This document shows positions 1,227 to 62,651 of a DNA stretch of 62,651 nucleotides, one piece after another; within the stretch, counting starts at the first letter, position 1; each line of letters starts with the position of its first letter. The DNA is from a virus: positions 1-62,651 of IMG/VR virus record IMGVR_UViG_3300044858_004015; one strand, given 5' to 3'. The notes below the pieces were generated by a model. It was not told the origin of the DNA. It made no database searches and saw only the letters and a program-made list of their open reading frames with translations. The position numbers were made by a program, and so were the translations under genes.

Positions 1227-1637
1227 CTAATCTTTCTTGTGTATCTGCCTTTTGACTTCCATTACTTGCGCTTTTGCCTTGGCTACTCTAGCACCTCCAG
1301 GCGTTAGCGATCCCGAAGTTAGCGGCCTTCCTAAACGAGTAGCGTTAATAGTCTGATAAAGACTGGTTTGAACACGCCTCAAAGATTCAACTGCGCGTAA
1401 GATTGCTGGCTTGTGCAGAACGAAAAACCCTTCAGTTTGCTTGTCTTTTGCTACTCTCTCCGCCTCTTCGCATAGACGCACTGCATCTAGTAATTGCTGC
1501 TTTATGGCTGCAATCTCTCCAGCGCTGAGTAATTCCGCTTTTTGTGGCGTCCTGACCATACGGTTATTGTACTGATCGATCAATATCGAGGAATCTTCTG
1601 TCAACACAAATTCTTGTGAATTAAAGACTTGCGACAT
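1227..1637 (-). CDS. Hypothetical helical protein upstream of the lipoprotein
   Basis: The open frame extends to 1700, but I choose the ATG at 1637 (MSQVFNSQEF). The extra upstream residues are Cys- and aromatic-rich, unlike the rest, and would cover the operator palindrome at 1650-1661. The product, 136 residues, is mainly helical with long amphipathic stretches (EIAAIKQQLLDAVRLCEEAER) and a basic C-terminus ending in HKKD. It is followed after 3 bp by the lipoprotein gene, so the two probably share a transcript. I see no helix-turn-helix and do not recognise a family. A lysogeny-expressed role is inferred from orientation only. Confidence 0.6.
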   Translation of the reverse strand: MSQVFNSQEFVLTEDSSILIDQYNNRMVRTPQKAELLSAGEIAAIKQQLLDAVRLCEEAERVAKDKQTEGFFVLHKPAILRAVESLRRVQTSLYQTINATRLGRPLTSGSLTPGGARVAKAKAQVMEVKRQIHKKD

Positions 1638-1816
1638 TATGTCGTAGCTGTTTTGCAAAACTAAGCAAAAATACGTAAAACACCAATTGCAATTTTGCAT
1701 AACTGCCGATACACTTCTCTATCAGTTGGCAGCAGGGAGGTCGCCAGGCCCGAGGCCAAAACGGACAAAATCACGACGGTTTTTATTGCACGAAGCTTTG
1801 AAAGGAACACAGAACC
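1638..1816. promoter_or_regulatory. Divergent control region with palindrome between lipoprotein operon and csrA
   Basis: The region separates two divergent operons. A perfect 12-bp palindrome GTTTTGCAAAAC lies at 1650-1661, and a related half site, ATTTTGCAT, at 1692-1700. Related TTGCAAAA half sites lie at 392-399 and near 5055. This looks like an operator for a phage switch protein. No clear repressor gene was recognised, so the binder is unknown. Confidence 0.45.
1802..1814 (+). promoter_or_regulatory. csrA leader motif AAGGAACACAGAA
   Basis: This 13-bp element holds the ribosome binding site (AAGGAA) of csrA. Almost the same word, AGGAACCCAGAA, precedes the exonuclease gene (2017-2028) and recT (3078-3089). 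The GGA core inside a ribosome binding site is the hallmark of CsrA targets, so autoregulation is plausible. Confidence 0.5.
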
Positions 1817-1987
1817 ATGCTAGTTCTCTCACGCAAGGAATCAGAGTCAATCATCCTGACCGACGAAGCGTCAAAACGCGAAATCACGATCAAGCTGGTC
1901 GCCATCAATGGGAACCGAGCCAGGATCGGGATCGAGGCTGACATGCAAGTGAAGGTACTACGCGAAGAACTGCGAGAAGCCAGCTAA
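1817..1987 (+). CDS. csrA: CsrA-family translational regulator, 56 aa
   Basis: The protein starts MLVLSRKESESI, the signature start of CsrA/RsmA, and continues with the KLVAINGNRARIGIEA and VKVLREEL blocks that form the beta strands and the RNA-contacting VxRE segment (V47, R49, E50). CsrA dimers bind GGA motifs in mRNA leaders and block or stabilise translation. At 56 residues it is a little shorter than bacterial CsrA (about 60-70) but has every core strand. The ribosome binding site AAAGGAA lies 10 bases upstream of ATG. It opens the main early operon just before the exonuclease gene. The gene is diverged from typical chromosomal copies in its middle. The family call is firm; its targets are inferred. 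Confidence 0.93.
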   Translation: MLVLSRKESESIILTDEASKREITIKLVAINGNRARIGIEADMQVKVLREELREAS

Positions 1988-2010
1988 CTAACACTTCAAT
2001 TTCTCCAATC

Positions 2011-2034
2011 CTGTCTAGGAACCCAGAATGACAG
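2011..2034 (+). promoter_or_regulatory. Predicted CsrA-type hairpin over the start of the exonuclease gene
   Basis: CTGTC (2011-2015) can pair with GACAG (2030-2034), leaving a 14-base loop TAGGAACCCAGAAT that displays GGA and the first two bases of the ATG at 2028. A GGA in a hairpin loop overlapping the ribosome binding site is the classical CsrA binding form. The pairing is seen directly; protein binding is inferred. Confidence 0.5.
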
Positions 2035-2813
2035 ACATCGCCTTCGACATTGAAACAGGTCCACTTGACCTGGAACAACTCAAGCAAGTCTTACCGCCGT
2101 TTGATGCTGCCAGCTTAGGCCAGCACCCCGGTGAGTTCGATCCGGCCAGCGTCAAGACCGGCAATCTAAAAGATCAATCCAAGATCGATGCTAAGATCGC
2201 CGACGCACGCGAGGCCCACACCTTGGCGGTAAAACGCTACGAAGAGAGCCTAGCGACTGGAGAGCCAGCGTATTGGCAGGAGCAACAATCCCGAGCCGCA
2301 CTATCCGCCATGACCGGCCAAGTATTGGCGATTGGATACGCGGGAGAGCGAGTTCTTTTGGATCACATCAGCGAGACTGCCAGCGAAAAGCAATTGCTGA
2401 TTCGATTTTGGAATCAATTCAATCGCTGTCGCGAGTCTGGCCGTCGAATGGTCGGATGGAATATCGAAGGCTTTGATCTTCCGTTTCTTTGCCAAAGATC
2501 AGCGATCCTTGGCGTTACGGTTCCCGAAAAGGTGTTCACCGAAGCTGGTTGGACGGATTTCACGTTCGTCGATTTGATGAAGCGATGGAGTCGCCCAACT
2601 CGAACACCAGTGAAGCTAGATACAGTCGCGCGAGCTTGCGGACTTCAAGGAAAGCCGTCAGATGAAAGCGGAAAAGCGATCGACGGCAGCCAGTTCGCGC
2701 GGCTGTTCTTTGAGACTCCAGAGGTAGCTCTGGATTATTTGAAATGCGACCTGCAAATGGTCGTAAGTATTGGATCTCGCCTTGGTTTGCAGATGGCAGG
2801 CAGCAATGAATAG
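2028..2813 (+). CDS. DnaQ-like 3'-5' exonuclease (PolB exonuclease-like)
   Basis: The 261-residue protein has the DEDD exonuclease motifs: FDIETG with D7 and E9, WNIEGFDLPFL (motif II) and YLKCDLQMV near the C-terminus (motif III), plus a conserved LDTVARACGL stretch. This matches the predicted PolB-type 3'-5' exonucleases common in phage recombination and replication modules. It likely trims DNA ends for the RecT system encoded next, or acts in proofreading; no DNA polymerase gene was recognised in this genome. An insertion at about residues 15-95 separates motif I from motif II more than usual. The start is fixed by the AGGAACCCAGAA leader. Confidence 0.85.
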   Translation: MTDIAFDIETGPLDLEQLKQVLPPFDAASLGQHPGEFDPASVKTGNLKDQSKIDAKIADAREAHTLAVKRYEESLATGEPAYWQEQQSRAALSAMTGQVLAIGYAGERVLLDHISETASEKQLLIRFWNQFNRCRESGRRMVGWNIEGFDLPFLCQRSAILGVTVPEKVFTEAGWTDFTFVDLMKRWSRPTRTPVKLDTVARACGLQGKPSDESGKAIDGSQFARLFFETPEVALDYLKCDLQMVVSIGSRLGLQMAGSNE

Positions 2814-3063
2814 CACCATCTGCAATCCATACGGCGCGATTCTAAAAATTGCTGACGGTCAGTTATTCGACGAGATCGCTCAGTATATCGAATGTCGACC
2901 AGGAGCGGAAGCGTCCTGGACTCAGGCCATAGGCGGCGCGTGCGCACTGTTGGCCAGTGAAAAACTAGTGATCAATCGCGAGTCAAAAGATCGGATTCGC
3001 GAAGAACTAGAAAAGCTGGACAAAGCTATCGCATTCGCAGCGTCTAGGCCGAACCGTGTTTAG
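2806..3063 (+). CDS. Hypothetical early protein, 85 aa
   Basis: I choose the ATG at 2806, which overlaps the end of the exonuclease gene (ATGAATAG), a coupling arrangement. The product has a helical, charged C-terminal half (ESKDRIREELEKLDKAI) and two Cys residues but no family I recognise. Position between the exonuclease and recT suggests a small partner of that module. Function unknown. Confidence 0.6.
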   Translation: MNSTICNPYGAILKIADGQLFDEIAQYIECRPGAEASWTQAIGGACALLASEKLVINRESKDRIREELEKLDKAIAFAASRPNRV

Positions 3064-3076
3064 AAAAATCCCAGTT

Positions 3077-3089
3077 AAGGAACCCAGAA
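3077..3089 (+). promoter_or_regulatory. recT leader motif AAGGAACCCAGAA
   Basis: This is the same word as before csrA and the exonuclease gene, holding the ribosome binding site 2 bases upstream of the recT ATG. A small stem GTT/AAC can expose the AAGG loop. It is a candidate CsrA target. Confidence 0.5.
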
Positions 3090-3090
3090 A

Positions 3091-4113
3091 ATGAACGCTA
3101 TTTCTTCGCAGTACCGAGAGGCACTGCAAAATTTTGAGCCGATCGAAAAAATCGGCAAGGCAATCGCCCAGTCTGGCATGTTTGGATGCCAAGATGCCCA
3201 TCAAGGGTTGATCATCGCATTAGATTGTTACGTCCGAGGCATTCCGCCACTTGAGTATCAGTCCCGCAATCACATGATCATGGGTAAGCCAAGCATGAAG
3301 TATGACGCCATGCTGGCGGACTTCGACGCGATCGATGGGTGTCGTCATGCGGTGATTGAAAAGACGCCAGATCAGGCTTCTGTAGCATTCTTTCAGACGT
3401 ATCACGACGAAGTAATTGAAAACGTCTTCACGTTGACCTGGGAAGAAGCCCAGAAGGAAGCTTTCGTCTACGAAGGAAAGGAAGCCGTCATCCTGGAAAA
3501 ATTGGCTCGTGGCGAGAAGCCGCCTTTGAAAGCTAAGTACGCTACACCGCGAAGCCGAGCGATCATGCTCTTTGCGCGATGCGTCTCAGATGCGATTCGA
3601 TCAGTGGCTCCTCAAGTTTCTGCCGGTCGATACACGCCAGAAGAAATCGAGGACATGACCGAATCGCCGATCGGAACATCTAACGCCAAGGTAGTTGCTT
3701 CACTGGCGGTCGAGTCGGCGAAGAATGAAGAGACGAAAGCCGATCCCGTTAAAAAGAACGGAGCCGCGACAAAAGAGACGGTCGCCAAACCAGAGAAGGT
3801 AGAGGCTAAGGTAGAGGCTAGGTCTGACGCCAAGCCAGTCAGCGAGCCCGTCACTAGGGTTCACGTTTCGGAGCCCATTACGACTGAGCAGGACGCGAAG
3901 ATCAGAAGGCTGATAGTCGACTTGAAAAAAGTCGGCATCACGGTTGCGCCTGGTATCAAGGACATACTGAAGAGCAAGGGCATGGAATCGCTATCGGATC
4001 TGACGATCGAGTCGGCGGACTGCTTGATTCGCGCGCTGGAAAAGAAGGATCTCGAAGCTTGGGCGGAAAGCCAGATTACTGGTCACAAGGATGCTTTTTC
4101 GAAGGCCAAGTAG
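3091..4113 (+). CDS. recT: RecT-family single-strand annealing protein
   Basis: The 340-residue protein carries the RecT-like core in residues 1-200: an N-terminal helical lead, MIMGKPSMKYDAMLADF, and YATPRSRAIMLFARCVSD followed by IRSVAPQVSAGRYTPEEIED. Proteins of this form coat single strands and anneal complementary DNA during phage recombination. After about residue 205 the chain becomes a low-complexity Lys/Glu/Ala/Val linker, then a short C-terminal helical domain (residues 265-335) with a helix-hairpin-helix-like look (GIKDILKSKGMESLSDLT). That tail may bind DNA or partners. The neighbours, exonuclease, SSB-like protein and RecD2 helicase, agree with a recombination module. Confidence 0.85.
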   Translation: MNAISSQYREALQNFEPIEKIGKAIAQSGMFGCQDAHQGLIIALDCYVRGIPPLEYQSRNHMIMGKPSMKYDAMLADFDAIDGCRHAVIEKTPDQASVAFFQTYHDEVIENVFTLTWEEAQKEAFVYEGKEAVILEKLARGEKPPLKAKYATPRSRAIMLFARCVSDAIRSVAPQVSAGRYTPEEIEDMTESPIGTSNAKVVASLAVESAKNEETKADPVKKNGAATKETVAKPEKVEAKVEARSDAKPVSEPVTRVHVSEPITTEQDAKIRRLIVDLKKVGITVAPGIKDILKSKGMESLSDLTIESADCLIRALEKKDLEAWAESQITGHKDAFSKAK

Positions 4114-4268
4114 AGCATTTTGGCGAGCCCTGCTTGGCTGGTTTGGTTAAGAAATACGGTCAGCTCGTAGTATGGCGAGCAAGCCTAACACGGCTGGGAT
4201 ATCCGGCCACTTGGATTACAGATGAATCGGAAGTTTTGAAAATCGAATCTTTTTTGAAAGGTGAATAA
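4059..4268 (+). CDS. Hypothetical small protein overlapping the recT end
   Basis: An open frame in a different phase runs from inside the 3' end of recT to 4268, two bases before the SSB-like gene's ATG. The C-terminal 45 residues (GLVKKYGQLVVWRASL onward) look protein-like. The start is uncertain: a TTG at 4059 gives 69 residues, and a TTG at 4134 would avoid the overlap. No family is recognised. It could be a short coupled gene or a chance frame; the tight spacing to the next gene favours a real one. Confidence 0.45.
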   Translation: MGGKPDYWSQGCFFEGQVEHFGEPCLAGLVKKYGQLVVWRASLTRLGYPATWITDESEVLKIESFLKGE

Positions 4269-4270
4269 TC

Positions 4271-4852
4271 ATGTCGTTTACTATGGAAATGCCAACTGAA
4301 TTTGGAAGCTCGTCAATGGTCGACGTTAGCGGAAAGTTTCATGCGGTGATTAAAGATGTGGAAGAAAATCCGATATTGGGCGATCATCCATTTCGCGGGT
4401 TCCAAGCGGAATTAGAAATCGTGTCTCCGAGCGAACACGCCGAGAAGACTGCTAAGATTCTGTTTGGGAATCCGGATATGTCGCACAAGGACAAGGGGGC
4501 TTTCGCTCGAAGCAAGCAAGCGAGCTTCGCGATCGCTACCAACCTGGTCGACCTAAGCAAGCTTGGACAGTCGGTCGATATCGATCTCACTTCGGCTATT
4601 GGCCAGCATGTCCTGGCTGAAATCGTAATGAAGCCAACGAGGAACGATCCAAATAAGGTCTTTCCAGAGCTTAACTACTCGAACATTTACCACGTCGACG
4701 ATCCACGAGCCAAGGGCTACCCGCGAAACGATGATGCGCTGAAGGCCGTCGGCGCTCCTCGTCAGCCCGAAGGGTACTTTGCTCCACTGACCAAAAAGAA
4801 GACGCCACCAGCGACGACTAAAGCGACTGACGACGATTTCGCTGGCCTGTAG
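4271..4852 (+). CDS. Phage single-stranded DNA-binding-like protein (DUF669-like)
   Basis: The 193-residue protein has a predicted beta-rich core. It ends in an acidic tip after a basic linker: KKKTPPATTKATDDDFAGL, the typical SSB tail that recruits partner enzymes. It sits directly after recT and before the helicase, the usual place for a phage SSB of the DUF669-like group. The role would be to coat single strands during replication and annealing. The core sequence itself is only loosely familiar to me, so the family name is tentative, but tail plus context is good evidence. Its ribosome binding site is AAGG at the end of the preceding frame. Confidence 0.7.
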   Translation: MSFTMEMPTEFGSSSMVDVSGKFHAVIKDVEENPILGDHPFRGFQAELEIVSPSEHAEKTAKILFGNPDMSHKDKGAFARSKQASFAIATNLVDLSKLGQSVDIDLTSAIGQHVLAEIVMKPTRNDPNKVFPELNYSNIYHVDDPRAKGYPRNDDALKAVGAPRQPEGYFAPLTKKKTPPATTKATDDDFAGL

Positions 4853-4864
4853 TCAACTCCCGCC

Positions 4865-4898
4865 GTTGGTCTCCTAAACTGGGCAATGGGAGACCGAC
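4865..4898 (+). terminator. Hairpin after the SSB-like gene
   Basis: GTTGGTCTCC (4865-4874) pairs with GGAGACCGAC (4889-4898) over 10 bp with one G-U, around a 14-base loop. There is no T-run after it, so it is not a classical intrinsic terminator. It may be an mRNA 3' end stabiliser or a processing hairpin before the tRNA-like element, whose first bases it overlaps. Confidence 0.4.
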
Positions 4899-4969
4899 TG
4901 GTAATTGGCTCCAGGTTCGGGCGGTAGGCTCATTACCCTACCGCGAGGGTTCGATTCTCTCAGTCGATT
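4893..4969 (+). ncRNA. tRNA-like element 1 (degenerate Met-CAU-like)
   Basis: The element is 77 bases, tRNA length. A canonical T arm is visible (stem 4945-4949 with 4957-4961, loop TTCGATT). The acceptor pairs 4893-4899 with 4962-4968, 6 of 7 bp. A strong 7-bp anticodon-like stem CGGTAGG/CCTACCG carries the loop CTCATTAC, with CAT in the anticodon place but eight loop bases rather than seven. The D arm is weak (GCTC/GGGC possible). No CCA is encoded. It may be a decayed or unusual phage tRNA, or a tRNA mimic. Confidence 0.35.
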
Positions 4970-4972
4970 TTT

Positions 4973-5152
4973 GATCCAGCTTGGATGATCGCATTAAGGA
5001 TTACTTGCGTTAGTAGCATAGCGAAACCCTGCTCAAATAAAGGACCCGAAACGGTTGCAAAACTGCGGTGGGCCTCGAAGGTATCAAGGGGACGTGAGTA
5101 ATCTGGTTTATGTGGTTCGGCAACATTGTGGGTTCAACTCCTACCTGGATCA
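4973..5152 (+). ncRNA. tRNA-like element 2 with long internal segment
   Basis: The 3' part is a textbook tRNA end: T arm stem 5128-5132 with 5140-5144, loop TTCAACT, directly followed by CTGGATC (5145-5151) and A. The exact complement GATCCAG lies at 4973-4979, three bases after element 1, giving a perfect 7-bp acceptor. About 150 bases separate the halves, too many for a tRNA, so it would need an intron or be a tmRNA-like structured RNA. I could not fold a convincing D arm or anticodon arm or see intron core motifs. Confidence 0.3.
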
Positions 5153-5188
5153 CTAGATCGTCCCCTGGTCAAAGTAGGAAACTAAATA

Positions 5189-5284
5189 ATGACATTTTTT
5201 GAAGCCTGGATGATTGGTAACATCGCCGGAACCGTTGCTTGCCTTTGGCTAATGGTCGTGCATAGCCGCTCAAAAGAAGTTTGA
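5189..5284 (+). CDS. Very small membrane protein, 31 aa
   Basis: An ATG at 5189 with a good ribosome binding site (AGGAA, 9 bases upstream) opens a 31-residue frame ending 4 bases before the helicase gene. The product is a single hydrophobic helix (WMIGNIAGTVACLWLMVV) followed by a basic tail (HSRSKEV), so an inner-membrane anchor with the N-terminus out is likely. Role unknown. Tight coupling to the helicase suggests it is translated, and might help start helicase translation. Confidence 0.65.
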   Translation: MTFFEAWMIGNIAGTVACLWLMVVHSRSKEV

Positions 5285-5288
5285 CACA

Positions 5289-7751
5289 ATGTCACGAAAC
5301 CTTGAAATCATCGCAACTTACCGATCTGAGCGATTCCGCTTTGACAATGCAGATTCGTCTGTAGTTATTGCCAGCGCTCAACTGGCTCCACAATCACGGG
5401 AGACCGCCAGGGAAGTTGGCATCGAGGATTCGTATATCACGATCAAAGGCGAGGCGGACGATAGCGAGCTGGAGAAGGGAATCACCTATCGATTCCTTGG
5501 CCAGTGGAAGGATTATTTCAATCGTCGCATTGGCATCAAAGAAAAGCAATTTTGCTTCGCGACATTCGTACAGCACGTTGCGCCCGATCGCCAGTCACTA
5601 ATCGACTATCTGACTCACGCTGGAAAAGGCAATGGAGTAGGAGCCCGCAAGGCTGCAATTCTCGTTGACCAATTCGGCATCGATGAAGTCCTTGAGAAGT
5701 GCCGACAACCCCTGGAGGTCGTCTCCGTAATCGGCATTAAACAGGACCAGGCAGAGCGATTCGCTGACTATCTGATCGAGCAAAAAGCGATCGAGTCCGC
5801 ACTGCTAGACCTAGATTCACTCCTGGCCGGCAAAGGATTCCCGAAGACACTTCCACGAAAACTGATCAAAGAATTCGGCAACCAGGCCGCACAGATCATC
5901 ACTGACGATCCGTTCACGTTAATGCAATTCAAGGGGGTAGGCTTCAAGAAGGCCGATAACCTTTGGAATCTACTGCGCAAGCCAGCGAATGATATTCATC
6001 GGCTCGCAATGTGTCTCTGGTATGGTATGCACTCAGACACCAGCGGAAGTACATGGTTTCCCGCCAGGGTTGCCGTCGAAAGGCTTTCGCGCGAGATTGG
6101 CTGCGAGATCGATTATCGAGGCGCGATCCTACACGGAAAAGAACTGGCTGAAACGTCCGAGCATCATTATGGGGCCATTGCCAGCACCAGAACCGATGCT
6201 GATGGGTATCCCAAGGAAGACGGTCCAGTCCTCTGGTTGTCAGAGTATCGAAACGACCAGAGAGAGCAAGGAATAGTTGAGGCTATTTCGCAAGCTTTCG
6301 ATGAAGCTAAAGATCGTGTTTTGAACGTCGGCGAAAATGGCTTTCAGGCTATCAGCAACAGCCAATATTCGATTTGGCCGGAAGTCAAAGAAGTTCAAAA
6401 TCTATCCGACCATCAAAATGAGCAATTGCATAACGCTATTGGCATGCTCAACACTCCGATCGCAATTCTGACCGGCTCCCCTGGCACTGGGAAAACGTAT
6501 GTGGTCGCTCAGCTCCTCAAAGCCGTTATCCGCCAAGGCCGTATTGGCGTGACGGATATCGTTGTCGGAGCCCCAACCGGCAAAGCAGCAGTTAGGCTAA
6601 CCGAGACGTTTCAGCAATTCGGAATACCAATCACCGCCAGGACATGGCATTCGCATTTATTTGGCCTGGATGCTGAGAAGGGTGTGGCGCTTCCATGCAG
6701 ACTGATGATCGGCGACGAGACCAGCATGAATGATCTTGAGCTGATACACCGAGTATTCTCAGCTCGACCATACGGCGCTCACATGCTTTTAGTCGGCGAT
6801 CCGTTCCAGTTACCTCCAGTTGGTTGCGGTGCTCCATTTCGCGATTTGATTGACTCGGGAGTTATTCCATCTGGCCATCTCACCAAGATCGAACGCAACG
6901 CTGGAGAAATAGTCGAAATTTGCGCTAGGATTCGCGACGGTCAGCGATGGGACAATTTGCTTAATGCCGGGAACGTGTCCTGTTTTCCATCTAAGACGCC
7001 AGAGGCGCAGATCGAGAAGCTCGAAACACTAGTTCGTCAGCATGATAAATGGGAAGCCCAGGTACTGGTCCCCGTCAACGACAAGAGCCCTATATCGAGG
7101 AAGATTCTAAACGACCGGCTACAGAAGTTACTGAATCCAAACGGAGATCCGGTCGAAAGGACAAAGTTTCGCATCGGCGACAAGATCGTCTGCACTCAAA
7201 ACGGATGGTATCAGGTCAGCGGCGAGATTTCACAGCAGATCGATGAAGCGGACGTAAACGACCGATCGGAAGTGAGGGTTGCAAACGGCGAGCTGGCCGA
7301 AGTCGTCAACCTACACACGAGAGGATTCATAGCCAAGTTGGAGTCGCCGCGACGACATGTGATCGTCACGGTGGGAAAGGAATCCGGCAAGGATGCCGCC
7401 ACGGATGGCGAAGATTCGCAGGCTGAATCGCCTTCGGAAGAAACCTCAAAGGAATCTTCCCCTGGCGGTCTCAAGTGGGAGCTTGGCTACGCTCTAAGCT
7501 GCCATAAGGCCCAAGGCAGCGAATTTCCGTTCGTCTACATCATGGTCGACGAATATCCCGGCGCTCGCTCTATTTGCGATGCCTCCTGGGTCATGACTGC
7601 AATCAGTCGAGCCAAACAGGAATGTTATTTGATTGGTAATCCTGAAACCGCTCAGCGCTGGTGCAGATCTTGGAAGATCGGCGAGCGGAATACGTTTTTG
7701 AAAGAACGGCTTATTGCGGCAAGTGTAGAAAAAGAATTGGAGGCTATCTGA
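5289..7751 (+). CDS. RecD2-like SF1B DNA helicase
   Basis: The 820-residue protein has the RecD2 layout: an OB-like N-terminus, a helix-hairpin-helix array (residues about 110-230, GNGVGARKA, GVGFKKADNLW) and two RecA-like motor domains. Visible motifs are Walker A GSPGTGKT at about 395-402, motif II GDETSMND, motif III GDPFQLPPVG, and the C-terminal GYALSCHKAQGSEFP and WVMTAISRAK blocks. It should unwind DNA 5' to 3' in recombination or repair. A low-complexity acidic/Ser insertion (about residues 700-730) lies just before the last motor motifs. Its stop overlaps the next gene's ATG, so the nuclease encoded there is probably its partner. Confidence 0.92.
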   Translation: MSRNLEIIATYRSERFRFDNADSSVVIASAQLAPQSRETAREVGIEDSYITIKGEADDSELEKGITYRFLGQWKDYFNRRIGIKEKQFCFATFVQHVAPDRQSLIDYLTHAGKGNGVGARKAAILVDQFGIDEVLEKCRQPLEVVSVIGIKQDQAERFADYLIEQKAIESALLDLDSLLAGKGFPKTLPRKLIKEFGNQAAQIITDDPFTLMQFKGVGFKKADNLWNLLRKPANDIHRLAMCLWYGMHSDTSGSTWFPARVAVERLSREIGCEIDYRGAILHGKELAETSEHHYGAIASTRTDADGYPKEDGPVLWLSEYRNDQREQGIVEAISQAFDEAKDRVLNVGENGFQAISNSQYSIWPEVKEVQNLSDHQNEQLHNAIGMLNTPIAILTGSPGTGKTYVVAQLLKAVIRQGRIGVTDIVVGAPTGKAAVRLTETFQQFGIPITARTWHSHLFGLDAEKGVALPCRLMIGDETSMNDLELIHRVFSARPYGAHMLLVGDPFQLPPVGCGAPFRDLIDSGVIPSGHLTKIERNAGEIVEICARIRDGQRWDNLLNAGNVSCFPSKTPEAQIEKLETLVRQHDKWEAQVLVPVNDKSPISRKILNDRLQKLLNPNGDPVERTKFRIGDKIVCTQNGWYQVSGEISQQIDEADVNDRSEVRVANGELAEVVNLHTRGFIAKLESPRRHVIVTVGKESGKDAATDGEDSQAESPSEETSKESSPGGLKWELGYALSCHKAQGSEFPFVYIMVDEYPGARSICDASWVMTAISRAKQECYLIGNPETAQRWCRSWKIGERNTFLKERLIAASVEKELEAI

Positions 7752-8512
7752 TGTTTAATCAACTATCAGAACAGCTTGGCATTGCTCGACCGTCAGACTG
7801 GTCGCAGGTCTCACCGAGCCAAGTTCTGGCCAAACCACGGACAGGCGATCGCACTTTGCAGAGCTTGCGGCTTTGGTTGGCCAAGCAAAATCTAACACTT
7901 CTGGACGATCAAACGCCAGAATATTGGCTTGCGCAGTCGGAAAGCGGCCCAGTTGTCAGCCCATTTGTAATCATCGTAGACGAAAAGGAACAACAGCCAT
8001 TCACATTCCCCGACCTACAGACAGGAGCTTCACAGGGCTATCGAAAGATAGTCGCCAGAACGATCCGCAGGTCGCTAGGAACCTCCAAGGGTGACTACTC
8101 GATGACTGGCTTCGAGGGACAGATTCATATCGAGCGAAAGTCGATGGAAGACGCCCACGGAACTATCCTTGGCTGGGGTGAGCGCCGCGATCGCTTCGAG
8201 GCCACATTGTCCTACTTGAACCAGATCGAGTTCGGAGCAGTCATTGTCGAATGCACTCTTGGAGTTTTGCTGGCCAACGCTCCCGAGCGCGGGAAGAAAA
8301 CGAAAGTCGAGAATCGTCGATCTATCAACGCGACGTACTTGTCCTGGCAAATGAAGTATTCATCAGTCCCTTGGATTTTCTGCGATACCAGGGGCTTGGC
8401 CGAGACGGAGACGTACCGGCTATTCGAGAAATTTTACGCTTACAAAATCAAGCGACGAAAATCCGCAGAATCACACTCCCAATCACTTTCTAACGACCTA
8501 TCTCTAATCTAA
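7751..8512 (+). CDS. ERCC4-type (XPF-like) nuclease
   Basis: I choose the ATG at 7751, which overlaps the helicase stop (TGATG). The 253-residue protein has the ERCC4 nuclease signature: IIVDEKEQQP (first acidic residues), GDYSMTGFEGQIHIERKSMED with the diagnostic ERKxxxD, then a helical segment (RRDRFEATLSYLNQI) and VIVECTLG. ERCC4 nucleases cut branched or flapped DNA near junctions. The translational link to RecD2 suggests a helicase-nuclease pair that resolves recombination intermediates made by RecT. The N-terminal 70 residues are unassigned. The eukaryotic-type C-terminal HhH is absent here, but the next gene supplies an HhH protein. Confidence 0.88.
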   Translation: MFNQLSEQLGIARPSDWSQVSPSQVLAKPRTGDRTLQSLRLWLAKQNLTLLDDQTPEYWLAQSESGPVVSPFVIIVDEKEQQPFTFPDLQTGASQGYRKIVARTIRRSLGTSKGDYSMTGFEGQIHIERKSMEDAHGTILGWGERRDRFEATLSYLNQIEFGAVIVECTLGVLLANAPERGKKTKVENRRSINATYLSWQMKYSSVPWIFCDTRGLAETETYRLFEKFYAYKIKRRKSAESHSQSLSNDLSLI

Positions 8513-8527
8513 GGAATCTAAAAAATC

Positions 8528-9700
8528 ATGGCAGTAATCGACATGACCGCTTTTACTCCCGAGTCAGCACAAACGCCAGTTGTCGCCGTTCAGGCTAATC
8601 CTGAAGTCACGGCCAAGCCAGTCGAAGCGAAGCCGCAAGAGACAAAACCACCAGCGGAGGCGATAACAGTAGTCGGAGTTACGCCAGACGAATTCGCACT
8701 ACTCGATTCACTCTACCAATCGTATCTGCGATTCCTAAAGGCGTCGAAGGAGCAGGCTCAGGCCGCGAAGGATCTCGGCGCGGCTCAAACTGCTTTTGAC
8801 GCCTGCCAGGGCGAAACAAAGGGCGCGAAGGAGGCATTCGAGGTAATATTGAAGTCTCTCCCGGACGAGCTGGTAAAGATCCGAGATCCGCAGGCAACCG
8901 CCATGATCGAAGCGGTTAGAGACCTGGCCGCCACCGAAACCATGCCAGAGTGTGCGAAGGAAGCCATTTCGCGATCGCAAGCCTACGAAGCTTGGACTAA
9001 GGAATCTACTCAAAAAATCGTCGATGCCGGTGTCCCTGGGCTCGGAAAGAAAAAAGCAGAATTGCTGGTCGAGAAATTTCCGACAATCGGCGATCTTGAA
9101 GCTTCGCGAGCTGAAGCCGCAGAATCGCGAGTCCACTGGTCGAAAAAGCTGCCCAAGGGCTTTGGGGTCGACGTTGCCGATGCGATTTACGACGCAATGG
9201 CAAAGCTTCTAAGGCAGATCGAGACCGCCAGCGAAAGCGGAGGTGATCCGGTGGCTTCAATCGTCCAAGACGATGCAAGTGATTCAAGCGAGCCGTCACT
9301 GGCGGTCGATCCCGAGCCAGCGCCGCCAGTGGTGAGTGACATCGACGCAGACGACGAGCTTGAGTACGAAGACTTCGATTCGGAAGATGATGATTTGCCC
9401 TTCGAAGACGAGTCGGAGAGCGAGGCTTCAGAGGTTGATAGCGAGCCCGAGTCCAACGATATTTCGGCGCTCGAGTGGATCGAGTCAATCTACAACGAGA
9501 TCACTGAAAACACTAGCGAACAAAAGAAGCTTTGGGGCCTGAACCAAGCCGGTAAAAACTCGCCAGAGTGGGAGAAGGGCCGTAAGGCACAGGAAGACGG
9601 ATTCGAGATCGCAGATTGCCCGTATGGTAAAGATCGAGAGCAGGCTGCCCGAGATTGGTTACGCGGATGGATTGCCGCCAGCATGAACATGGACCTTTGA
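8528..9700 (+). CDS. HhH protein with acidic linker and RMF-like C-terminus
   Basis: The 390-residue protein is modular. Residues 1-50 are a Pro/Lys/Glu-rich lead. Residues 55-145 are helical. Residues about 165-195 hold a helix-hairpin-helix (VPGLGKKKAELLVEKFPTIG). Residues 245-320 are a strongly acidic linker. The last 48 residues match the ribosome modulation factor pattern: W-x-x-G, then G, CPY, and W-x-x-GW. RMF-like domains occur in phage proteins. The HhH could serve the ERCC4 nuclease encoded upstream, as HhH domains do in XPF. Whether the tail binds ribosomes is open. Ribosome binding site AAGGAATC is 10 bases upstream. Confidence 0.7.
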   Translation: MAVIDMTAFTPESAQTPVVAVQANPEVTAKPVEAKPQETKPPAEAITVVGVTPDEFALLDSLYQSYLRFLKASKEQAQAAKDLGAAQTAFDACQGETKGAKEAFEVILKSLPDELVKIRDPQATAMIEAVRDLAATETMPECAKEAISRSQAYEAWTKESTQKIVDAGVPGLGKKKAELLVEKFPTIGDLEASRAEAAESRVHWSKKLPKGFGVDVADAIYDAMAKLLRQIETASESGGDPVASIVQDDASDSSEPSLAVDPEPAPPVVSDIDADDELEYEDFDSEDDDLPFEDESESEASEVDSEPESNDISALEWIESIYNEITENTSEQKKLWGLNQAGKNSPEWEKGRKAQEDGFEIADCPYGKDREQAARDWLRGWIAASMNMDL

Positions 9701-9714
9701 AACGGTAAGACAAA

Positions 9715-9987
9715 ATGGTAACGAACACGCTTTTGACGCCAGCCGAGGTTGGCGAGATCCTGAACCTAACCCCGCAGACTGTTCGTGCAATGTGCGATCG
9801 TGGAGAACTCGATCACGTTCGCATTGGCACTGGTAAGCGAACCACATACAGGATTCAGCGGCAATTCTTAGATAAGCTTTTGCAGCGAGGCAAAACTGAT
9901 TCGCAGGAGAGCGAAGCCAATTCAAGCGAGGACATCGACTACAGGGTAAATGATGACGAGTATATCAATAACTGGTCTAAGGAATAG
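9715..9987 (+). CDS. Excisionase-like MerR-type HTH protein
   Basis: The 90-residue protein begins with a winged HTH of the helix_turn_helix_17 / Xis-AlpA type: LLTPAEVGEILNLTPQTVRAMC followed by DRGELDHVRIGTGKRTTYRI. The C-terminal 35 residues are acidic and probably unstructured. Proteins of this form either direct excision together with the integrase or control its gene. The integrase gene lies about 850 bp away in the opposite direction, which fits an excisionase. It could instead be the lysis-lysogeny regulator, as no other repressor was recognised. Confidence 0.75.
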   Translation: MVTNTLLTPAEVGEILNLTPQTVRAMCDRGELDHVRIGTGKRTTYRIQRQFLDKLLQRGKTDSQESEANSSEDIDYRVNDDEYINNWSKE

Positions 9988-10825: not shown

Positions 10826-11842
10826 TTAAACCTGCGCATTCGCGACAAACGCCTTCGCCGCCGCATCTACCATGTGAGCTTTATGCCTGTCTAAATGCCC
10901 GTAGACCTGGCCTACCATCCTAACGTCGCTATGCCCAAGCAATTCTGCGACTTCAGCCAGCGAAACACCATTAAGCAAGCTCTGGGTCGCAAAAGTATGC
11001 CTATAGGCGTAGGCGACCACACTTGTCGGAAGCTTTGCCCGCTCGCGCGCTCGAGCGATCGACCTCGAAACCGAATCTTTAGTCCACGCACCGCCATGGG
11101 TGTTTCGGAATAGCGGCCCGTCAGAGTGAATTTTAACCAAAAGCCGCGTCAAAGTCTGCAAGCATGGAGGAAGATAGACCACCAGGGGGCGATTCGTCTT
11201 GTGCCGCGTCTTGTGATCCTCGAAAATCCATAGCTTCCCATCGACTGACACATTCCTGGCGGCTACTTCCCTAATCTGCCTTGGCCTAGCTCCGCAGCGA
11301 GACGCGATCAGATAAAGCCTTAGAGCTGGGCTAGCTTCGCTAATCATGGCAGCATGCTGCTGAGGCGTAATCGTCGTGTTTCTGGGCCGGGCAGCCGGAG
11401 CCTTCAGCCGGATAACTGGATTCTTTTCGATGATCCCCTCGTCACGAGCCCACCGAAACAGCCCCTTGACCACTCGAATAGCATCCTTCTGAGTCGTAGC
11501 TGACCAAACGTCGACCTTTGGCTTCTTTTCATTCACCCAGGCCATTACGTCATTCACCTGGAGGTTATCGACCTGCTTATTCCCGAGCGCAGTAGAAAAC
11601 TGACGCAAGTAAGACCAGTTGATCAAGAATCGCTTTTCGCCCTTACGGAATTCATGGGCCTCCAGGTACAGCCTCACAAGAGTCTTGATACGGACTTTAG
11701 GCCCTTCAGTGAACCTACCTGCCAACATTTGCCGCCAGAGTTCAAACGCCGTTTCTTCATCCGGATCAAGACGAATGAAACGGCCAGCCTTGTCTTTGAG
11801 ATACCAGCACTGATGCGACGAGCGAAAGAACGGCTTACGCAC
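10826..11842 (-). CDS. int: Tyrosine recombinase / phage integrase
   Basis: The 338-residue protein has an N-terminal arm-binding part, a core-binding SAM-like domain (residues 45-150) and a catalytic domain. Visible catalytic residues are R186 (GARPRQI), K211 (DHKTRHK), R281 in AYAYRHTFAT, H304 (ELLGHSD) and the nucleophile Y314 (GQVYGHL). The first His of the HxxR box is Tyr (Y278), a form I associate with planctomycete integrases. It should recombine attP (12028-12072) with a chromosomal tRNA-Pro gene. The gene is last on the leftward strand and its start lies 185 bp from the att core, the usual layout. Confidence 0.93.
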   Translation of the reverse strand: MRKPFFRSSHQCWYLKDKAGRFIRLDPDEETAFELWRQMLAGRFTEGPKVRIKTLVRLYLEAHEFRKGEKRFLINWSYLRQFSTALGNKQVDNLQVNDVMAWVNEKKPKVDVWSATTQKDAIRVVKGLFRWARDEGIIEKNPVIRLKAPAARPRNTTITPQQHAAMISEASPALRLYLIASRCGARPRQIREVAARNVSVDGKLWIFEDHKTRHKTNRPLVVYLPPCLQTLTRLLVKIHSDGPLFRNTHGGAWTKDSVSRSIARARERAKLPTSVVAYAYRHTFATQSLLNGVSLAEVAELLGHSDVRMVGQVYGHLDRHKAHMVDAAAKAFVANAQV

Positions 11843-57450: not shown

Positions 57451-57702
57451 TCATCCATCCATCGAGTCGATAGCCAGGTCAACGATTCTGCGAGCCATCG
57501 CTTTACTTGTTCCGAGTCTCATGTATCTTCTCACTGCTTTGATCAGGTTGTCTTCTGCACGCTCCAGCTTTGCTCGATCTTCTAAAATTTCTGGATCAAT
57601 TTCGCGATTCTGCATTTCCCGAAGCCTCCAGTTGTTCAACCGATGCTCGGCGACTTCATCGAGGCTAAAAACACGCCGAGTTAGCTCAATTCCTGTTTTC
57701 AT
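57451..57702 (-). CDS. Hypothetical helical protein, 83 aa
   Basis: I choose the ATG at 57702 (MKTGIELTRRVFSLDE); the longer open frame to 57816 would overlap the upstream gene by more than 130 bp. The product is almost wholly helical with many Arg/Glu (LNNWRLREMQNREIDPEIL, then RAEDNLIKAVRRYMRL). No family recognised. It is the last gene of the leftward replication operon. Confidence 0.6.
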   Translation of the reverse strand: MKTGIELTRRVFSLDEVAEHRLNNWRLREMQNREIDPEILEDRAKLERAEDNLIKAVRRYMRLGTSKAMARRIVDLAIDSMDG

Positions 57703-58261
57703 TTTGTAATCTTGCTCCGCTGGTTTTCCCAGTCTTAGATACCCTAAATTCCTTCGGCACATACTCGGGCATACGCCTGAGCTTCCATTGTATTTCCTTG
57801 GTGATCCTACCGCCAAGGGATTCGATCAACCTCCCGAGATCCGCAAACGTCGCGTCCTGCTCATGCCACAACGGCAGCCCGCGCTCGAGTCTCTGCCGGA
57901 GGACTTCAACCTTCTCTGGCGTCCCTGCAATCTCCTGAGTTGGCAGGAAATCTTTTTTCAGGTCCATCGCCGCGCCGGGCTCCCAGTCTACTAGATCATG
58001 CGATCCATTCGCACCGATCAGATCAAAAAACGAATTCAATTTTTTATCGATCCCCACAAGCCTGGATGGCCTGTATGTCAGATCCGCCGCATCGACCATC
58101 TTGACGACCGGATACATCGACGACCTATGCTTGTGGTTCCCAATCAAAACCCTGTTGGGCTCGACTGTGCGATTGACCATTAACACCACGATTCTTTTGT
58201 CCTGATGGTATAGCTCGTCCCCAACGTGTACCGGTATGGACTTCCTTTTCGCTTTTTTCAT
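57686..58261 (-). CDS. Hypothetical protein, 191 aa
   Basis: The protein begins with a basic arm and a beta unit (SIPVHVGDELYHQDKRIVVLMVN), perhaps an SH3-like fold, followed by helices (EKVEVLRQRLERGLP) and a basic C-terminus. It overlaps its upstream neighbour by 137 bp in another frame. Its ATG lies right after a run of eight A, so a frameshifted fusion with that neighbour is possible. No family recognised. Confidence 0.6.
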   Translation of the reverse strand: MKKAKRKSIPVHVGDELYHQDKRIVVLMVNRTVEPNRVLIGNHKHRSSMYPVVKMVDAADLTYRPSRLVGIDKKLNSFFDLIGANGSHDLVDWEPGAAMDLKKDFLPTQEIAGTPEKVEVLRQRLERGLPLWHEQDATFADLGRLIESLGGRITKEIQWKLRRMPEYVPKEFRVSKTGKTSGARLQNENRN

Positions 58262-62069: not shown

Positions 62070-62651
62070 TTTTCGTCGCTCCAAAACCTACTCCAATCGC
62101 CTTAACTTTTAATTGCTCGTAACTTCCGTCAGCTTGCTTCGCGCCTGGTAGCGTTCGCTCTTTAAGGTTGTAGAGGAAATAGCCGATCGGCTTTCCTTCG
62201 CAGTCCACGCTTGGGACGGCCAGTACGGTGTATCGCTTCTTGCCTGGCTGATAGTAGGCGACGAACGCGCCTAAGACTCGCAGAGACTCAGGAGTGATCA
62301 GAGATCCAGATCGCCGCTTAGCGCACCACCAGGCGACGAGCTGTTGATTCCAGCCACCAGGGAAGGGTGTAATCTGCTCTTGGATTTTCTTCAGTTCTGA
62401 CTTGGCCTTTTCGACCTGCTTTCTCCGGAGTTCGTCGGATGAATGCGAATGTCCGTTGACTCCGATAGAGCCATTCAGGGTGCCATTCCCTGGCGGTTTA
62501 GCCTTCGAGTGACCATTGCGACTTGGGCCGAGACCTAAATAGTCGCCGATCTTGCGAATCGCCTCACCCTGCTTGATGCCTAGATACCAGCAGATTACAT
62601 CGATTCCATCGCCCAGGCCCTTACCGCATTGATTGCAGATAATCGAGCCGT
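62056..62651 (-). CDS. Primase zinc-ribbon protein, main part (5' end at 293 across the joint)
   Basis: This is the 3' part of the 253-residue gene; within it, 62525-62651 repeats 127 bases of the 5' part. The segment has a Lys/Gln linker (RRKQVEKAKSELKKIQEQI) and then TPESLRVLGAFVAYYQPG and YTVLAVPSVDCEGKPIGYF, which resembles the N-terminal half of the primase RNA-polymerase domain in phage T7 gp4-like or DnaG-like proteins. It ends there without a TOPRIM, so the catalytic domain is divided between two genes. The stop is TAG at 62058-62056, overlapped by the acetyltransferase start. Confidence 0.85.
   Translation of the reverse strand, partial: GSIICNQCGKGLGDGIDVICWYLGIKQGEAIRKIGDYLGLGPSRNGHSKAKPPGNGTLNGSIGVNGHSHSSDELRRKQVEKAKSELKKIQEQITPFPGGWNQQLVAWWCAKRRSGSLITPESLRVLGAFVAYYQPGKKRYTVLAVPSVDCEGKPIGYFLYNLKERTLPGAKQADGSYEQLKVKAIGVGFGATKNENR
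62525..62651. repeat. Terminal overlap, copy 2
   Basis: This segment is identical to 1-127 and should be counted only once in the genome. Confidence 0.95.

Follow-up and report, generated by a model that had tools for sequence, protein, structure and literature searches.

A CsrA-family gene repeatedly tied to a predicted recombination operon in a planctomycete-associated lineage of putative temperate phages

We analysed a short viral gene located at positions 1817-1987 of the window (i.e. the whole IMG/VR record IMGVR_UViG_3300044858_004015, 62,651 nucleotides) and found that it encodes a real CsrA-family protein, correctly named as such. On balance, we favour the view that this is a working CsrA-family RNA-binding protein, whose gene is frequent, kept and repositioned within a single lineage of temperate phages that probably infect Planctomycetota. 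Phages with csrA genes have been described before, as has the use of these genes to take over the host or suppress CRISPR (PMC7366521, PMC8450108). What sequence comparison indicates as new here is that csrA is repeatedly tied to an exonuclease-RecT-RecD2-ERCC4 operon in a planctomycete-associated lineage.

The first and last 127 bases of the record are identical and form a direct repeat (1-127 and 62525-62651), which points to a probably complete genome of about 62.5 kb; a primase-like frame on the minus strand crosses the join of these ends. Matches to an integrase, an excisionase-type HTH protein, a terminase, a portal, a major head protein and a primase identify the virus, by its predicted gene content, as a temperate tailed phage. 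The tyrosine integrase is encoded on the minus strand at 10826..11842 (phrog_1, E 1.7e-41) and the excisionase-family HTH protein on the plus strand at 9715..9987 (TIGR01764, 30.8 vs 28.8 bits). A tRNA scan of the virus DNA found none. The protein encoded at 57686-58189 (minus strand) contains a 31-residue stretch about 52% identical to the frame located just upstream of csrA in three other loci (L003, L004 and L007).

The csrA gene (plus strand, ATG start codon) specifies 56 residues, and the preliminary description, which had named this product CsrA from the sequence, was borne out by profile and structure databases. The protein matches the Pfam CsrA family (PF02599) over residues 1-55 with 58.3 bits (E 7.4e-16, cut-off 27) and the PHROG_9500 'CsrA-like regulator' profile over residues 1-54 (E 1.5e-10), and a sequence search of the PDB returned CsrA/RsmA chains, the best being 1y00 (E 1.6e-5). 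It scored under all cut-offs of the NCBIfam csrA equivalog models (47.6 vs 73 and 46.2 vs 70.1 bits for NF002469 and TIGR00202, respectively, and 41.5 vs 106 bits), and is thus a CsrA-family protein but not an orthologue by NCBI's standard. The remark that the gene is easily missed by annotation accordingly holds for the NCBI csrA cut-offs but not for Pfam and PHROGs, which both detect it.

Alignment with E. coli CsrA revealed the equivalents of both L4 and R44, described as the most critical RNA contacts of CsrA in the available text of a review (PMC7652899), together with five extra residues inserted near residues 16-22 and an L replacing H43. An AlphaFold model obtained with 22 aligned relatives (mean pLDDT 86.1) displays the CsrA arrangement of strands and then a helix at the C-terminus, and the top 13 Foldseek rows for this model were all CsrA/RsmA-type chains (query TM 0.51-0.65), with a best E of only 0.01 for this very small protein. 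The predicted fold is CsrA-like. The viral protein thus resembles the CsrA/RsmA family in fold, length class and the two contact residues, and differs from it by the insertion and by its scores below the equivalog cut-offs. The function we suggest for it is drawn from knowledge of the family.

Both ORFs on the left of csrA (858-1223 and 1227-1640) lie on the opposite strand, and csrA heads a rightward run ordered csrA-exonuclease-RecT-like-orf193-RecD2-like-ERCC4. This run comprises, all on the plus strand, a 3'-5' exonuclease of DNA_pol_B_exo2 type (2028..2813; PF10108, E 1.5e-9), a RecT-like annealing protein (3091..4113; phrog_561, E 3.8e-10), orf193, which has no assigned function and is conserved in the operon (4271..4852; tblastn to L033, L034 and others), a RecD2-like helicase (5289..7751; PF13604, PF14490 and PF13538) and an ERCC4-type nuclease (7661..8512; phrog_3490, E 5.9e-6). 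The earlier statement that csrA opens an early operon therefore stands as far as its leading position is concerned, the term 'early' being deduced from the recombination functions of the genes. In the same operon, the product of 8528-9700 carries at its C-terminus an Rmf/CrpP-type domain (NF041886, 28.5 vs 28 bits; Pfam RMF E 1e-4, under the cut-off), possibly a ribosome-binding module on a phage protein. Near csrA, the 858-1223 frame (minus strand) encodes a small protein whose start, LCIPGC, looks by eye like a lipobox.

The linkage between csrA and this operon was assessed in related records. Two loci, L033 and L034, were retrieved by a search with RecT rather than CsrA, and both have csrA immediately upstream; further operon loci were found with RecT and ERCC4 profiles. 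All 26 operon records were retrieved by RecT or ERCC4 queries, a single one (L012) by CsrA as well. PF02599 was found in 19 of these 26 whole records versus 0/50 other RecT-bearing records (50 of 67 generic RecT loci, subjected to the same whole-record search; Fisher p 1.7e-12). Two further ERCC4 profiles yielded 11 new, more distant operon-type records, four of which possess csrA over the cut-off and one more a partial match under it, and no csrA was found in any of 32 records from a clade where this order is reversed, ERCC4 preceding RecD2. All 37 whole records (26 + 11) were picked because the operon, or its RecD2-ERCC4 part, had been seen in them. From the proportions 19/26 and 4/11, the tie appears strong among near relatives and weaker further off.

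Several of the operon records devoid of csrA above the cut-off (7/26 and 7/11) are fragments. Among the seven near ones (L035, L038, L113, L115, L124, L128 and L131), L113 amounts to a fragment of 14 kb, and two loci (L035 and L115) start close to exo. L113 is also the closest relative of the virus (88% ERCC4 identity); its RecD2 (1584-5087) contains a long in-frame insert right after the GTGK of Walker A, intein-like by eye, from which the window copy is free.

Within the 19 csrA-bearing operon records, csrA precedes exo or RecT in 14, lies between exo and recT in L126 and is located elsewhere in three (L037, L045 and L119). In L012 it sits in the recD2 region; there it overlaps the linker that joins the N-terminal portion (ORF 4082-5137) to the helicase portion (5171-6481), thereby splitting recD2. 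For 16 records csrA falls inside the retrieved locus, always on the strand of the operon. Despite deep divergence, equivalents of L4 and R44 are present in 21/21 CsrA proteins of the operon lineage.

Regarding the host, ERCC4 profile A5 matched species-genome contigs at one place only, i.e. L125, a bacterial locus outside the 26 records that belongs to a Planctomycetaceae MAG. Its gene row reads exo, csrA (110 aa), recT, an integrase is also present, and the contig continues with host-type ZnuA/ABC-3/iron repressor genes (zinc uptake, ABC transport); L125 is a prophage of that MAG, related to the virus. The csrA gene occurs in 41/41 genomes of this Planctomycetaceae family, at 3-14 places in each, with nine matches in the MAG bearing L125, and the planctomycete CsrA proteins closest to that of the virus share 42-57% identity with it. 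In one genome of the family, G027, two nearly identical csrA copies lie about 12 kb apart. The ERCC4 profile matched 17 of 392 Planctomycetota genomes, strongly only in the one already known, and the virus terminase, taken as a host marker, had only weak relatives, in 2/294 planctomycete genomes, so that the assignment of a host to the virus itself is indirect. Taken at this level, the sequences suggest that the virus probably infects planctomycete bacteria.

In the scenario we favour, the phage CsrA would be made alongside the recombination and replication proteins as infection or induction begins. Its dimer would bind ANGGA sites in host mRNA leaders, and host translation would shift in favour of the phage, within a host already running on several CsrA paralogues. 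The protein would also limit its own synthesis via GGA sites in the csrA leader. That a phage CsrA may take over or buffer host translation, as had been proposed at the outset, is plausible, and the idea is already in the literature for other phages (PMC8450108, PMC7366521).

The region upstream of csrA was inspected for such sites. A candidate promoter, TTGCAA-17-TACACT, was read by eye at 1687..1715 (plus strand); a consensus promoter scan gave nothing at csrA and did not list it. The csrA leader (1722..1816, plus strand) contains an imperfect hairpin with GGA in its loop (GGCAGC-AGGGAG-GUCGCC), an ACGGAC motif, a T5 run and AAGGAAC at the RBS; no perfect GGA-loop hairpin was found in it, and the fold of the entire leader is less stable than that of shuffled sequences (z +1.58). 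In the Shine-Dalgarno-like AAAGGAAC, the GGA (1804-1806) is located 10 nt ahead of the ATG. ANGGA density on the plus strand reaches its maximum, 4 per 150 nt for a mean of 0.45, at 1713-1862, level with three other places. The virus DNA had no match in Rfam at gathering thresholds, and so none to a known attenuator or CsrB-like RNA. In E. coli, csrA autoregulation likewise involves leader GGA sites, including one at the RBS (review PMC7652899); the viral leader offers a counterpart suggested by sequence only.

These observations bear on a first alternative, possible though we hold it only tentatively, in which CsrA is mainly a phage-internal regulator that targets its own leader as well as the exo and recT RBS, timing the early operon, with a possible leader attenuator and with host targets being secondary. 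The csrA RBS word GGAACACAGA (1804..1813, plus strand) recurs in the form GGAAC[AC]CAGA at 2018-2027 and 3079-3088, and the exact matches in the 62.6 kb, both strands included, are these three only, i.e. the RBS of csrA, exo and recT, for about 0.24 expected by simple arithmetic with equal base use. Moreover, ANGGA occurs near the starts of 5/9 rightward early genes versus 7/34 others. However, a GGA within an RBS is indistinguishable from an ordinary Shine-Dalgarno sequence, and the word was not seen in the printed RBS sequences of 17 other phages.

Leaders of other csrA genes speak on both sides of this alternative. With the first hairpin settings (stem of at least 5, 3 GC pairs, loop 4-11), 8/21 lineage csrA leaders were positive versus 5.25 in shuffles, which is not significant (25/200 shuffles reach 8). 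Relaxed settings (2 GC pairs, loop 3-8), chosen after the leaders had been seen, gave 9 GGA-in-loop hairpins in the 21 leaders versus 3.35 in shuffles (0/150 reach it); the corresponding figures are 10 hairpins for 73 leaders taken from the other genes of the operon and one for 18 leaders of chromosomal csrA genes. In the lineage, clear examples are L034 (ACGGA and AGGAA loops), L039 (AGGGAGA) and L042 (AAGGA). An earlier count on shorter leaders showed little difference (2.86 GGA per leader against 2.41 for shuffled sequences). Under the relaxed settings, 19 leaders from other viral csrA loci gave 14 hairpins versus 2.35, eight of the 14 coming from the related L013, L017 and L021. A fresh set of viral csrA leaders showed no enrichment, with 8 hairpins in 58 leaders versus 7.3 (58 of 72 loci, after removal of 14 that were short or nearly duplicated; L197 and L246, already used, were excluded beforehand), and we therefore do not claim GGA-hairpin enrichment as a general rule.

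T-runs of at least 5 just before csrA were found in 7/21 lineage leaders versus 4/73 for other operon genes (p 0.002), and in 0/20 other viral csrA loci. The leaders of L120, L121 and L122 show long stems with CCACACA/TGTGTGG-type arms and a T-run directly ahead of the csrA RBS, a terminator-like arrangement. In another viral group (L013, L014, L017 and L021), two tandem CGGA-loop hairpins with CARGGATG between them stand within about 100 nt before csrA and, to judge from their sequence, look like a CsrA-binding leader. Overall, the leader data hint at self-control in part of the lineage and do not amount to a demonstrated rule. The suggestion that CsrA times the phage's own early genes is thus weakly upheld by GGA-rich leaders and shared RBS words, and failed to generalise to the 58 fresh leaders. 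A more elaborate model, which we regard as speculative, would make CsrA a built-in clock of the recombination/replication operon: the leader would be a CsrA-binding RNA (with a terminator-like element in some members), and free phage CsrA and host paralogues would together set early-operon output and couple lysis/lysogeny to the Csr state of the host.

Unlikely in our view is a role as defence suppressor, through which phage CsrA would lower translation of CRISPR-Cas or other defence genes. In Serratia, CRISPR-Cas is repressed by the RsmA of the host, and RsmA homologues carried by phages are proposed as anti-CRISPR (PMC8450108); for the present virus, no sign of such a role was seen in the window, PADLOC on 8 neighbouring or small ORFs giving no match but one weak CARF (E 0.009). 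We consider still less likely that csrA is a passenger ('moron') gene captured from a host and devoid of a role in the lytic programme: its position does vary among operon records, and the csrA of phage JC1 is termed a moron in the part of PMC9144972 available, but the retention of L4 and R44 in deeply diverged phages and the tie to one operon lineage argue against it. A virion-carried CsrA injected with the DNA is highly improbable, as, although one CsrA peptide was detected in JC1 virions, csrA lies there between the portal and major capsid genes (PMC9144972, same part), whereas here it belongs to a recombination operon far from the head genes.

The preferred reading, that of a working RNA-binding protein kept by one phage lineage, can be set against other mobile csrA genes. 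In Vibrio phages D65 and 1.232.O, csrA is found among small, mostly unknown genes, unlike this operon. A csrA with 42.6% identity to that of the virus is present on a plasmid record of P. fluorescens SBW25. We take this plasmid gene to be RsmQ. According to the text available for PMC9928087, RsmQ, likewise a mobile-element CsrA homologue, recognises GGA and ANGGA, above all those in hairpin loops, and reprograms its host; its binding and regulon were measured, while the viral protein is known from its sequence. As far as the accessible portions of the papers go, csrA was counted in 30/2517 phage genomes (PMC7366521), is abundant among phages in GenBank and IMG/VR, where its proposed role is to steer the host, with a possible action against CRISPR (PMC8450108), and occurs in JC1 and related phages (PMC9144972) and in a Vibrio phage (PMC12038007). 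The virus shares with the published phage csrA/rsm genes (PMC7366521, PMC8450108 and PHROG_9500) the carriage of a csrA homologue, and differs in its link to the exo-RecT-RecD2-ERCC4 operon of a planctomycete-associated lineage. In literature titles and abstract openings, mostly of non-subscription papers, we found no csrA in planctomycete phages or linked to a RecT/RecD2 operon.

Whereas earlier surveys count phage csrA genes, csrA is tied here to a definite operon, a lineage and hosts with many csrA copies. This lineage offers a concrete system in which the reasons for the carriage of CsrA by mobile elements can be explored. Should self-control and early timing hold, it would represent a phage switch that is read out in translation.
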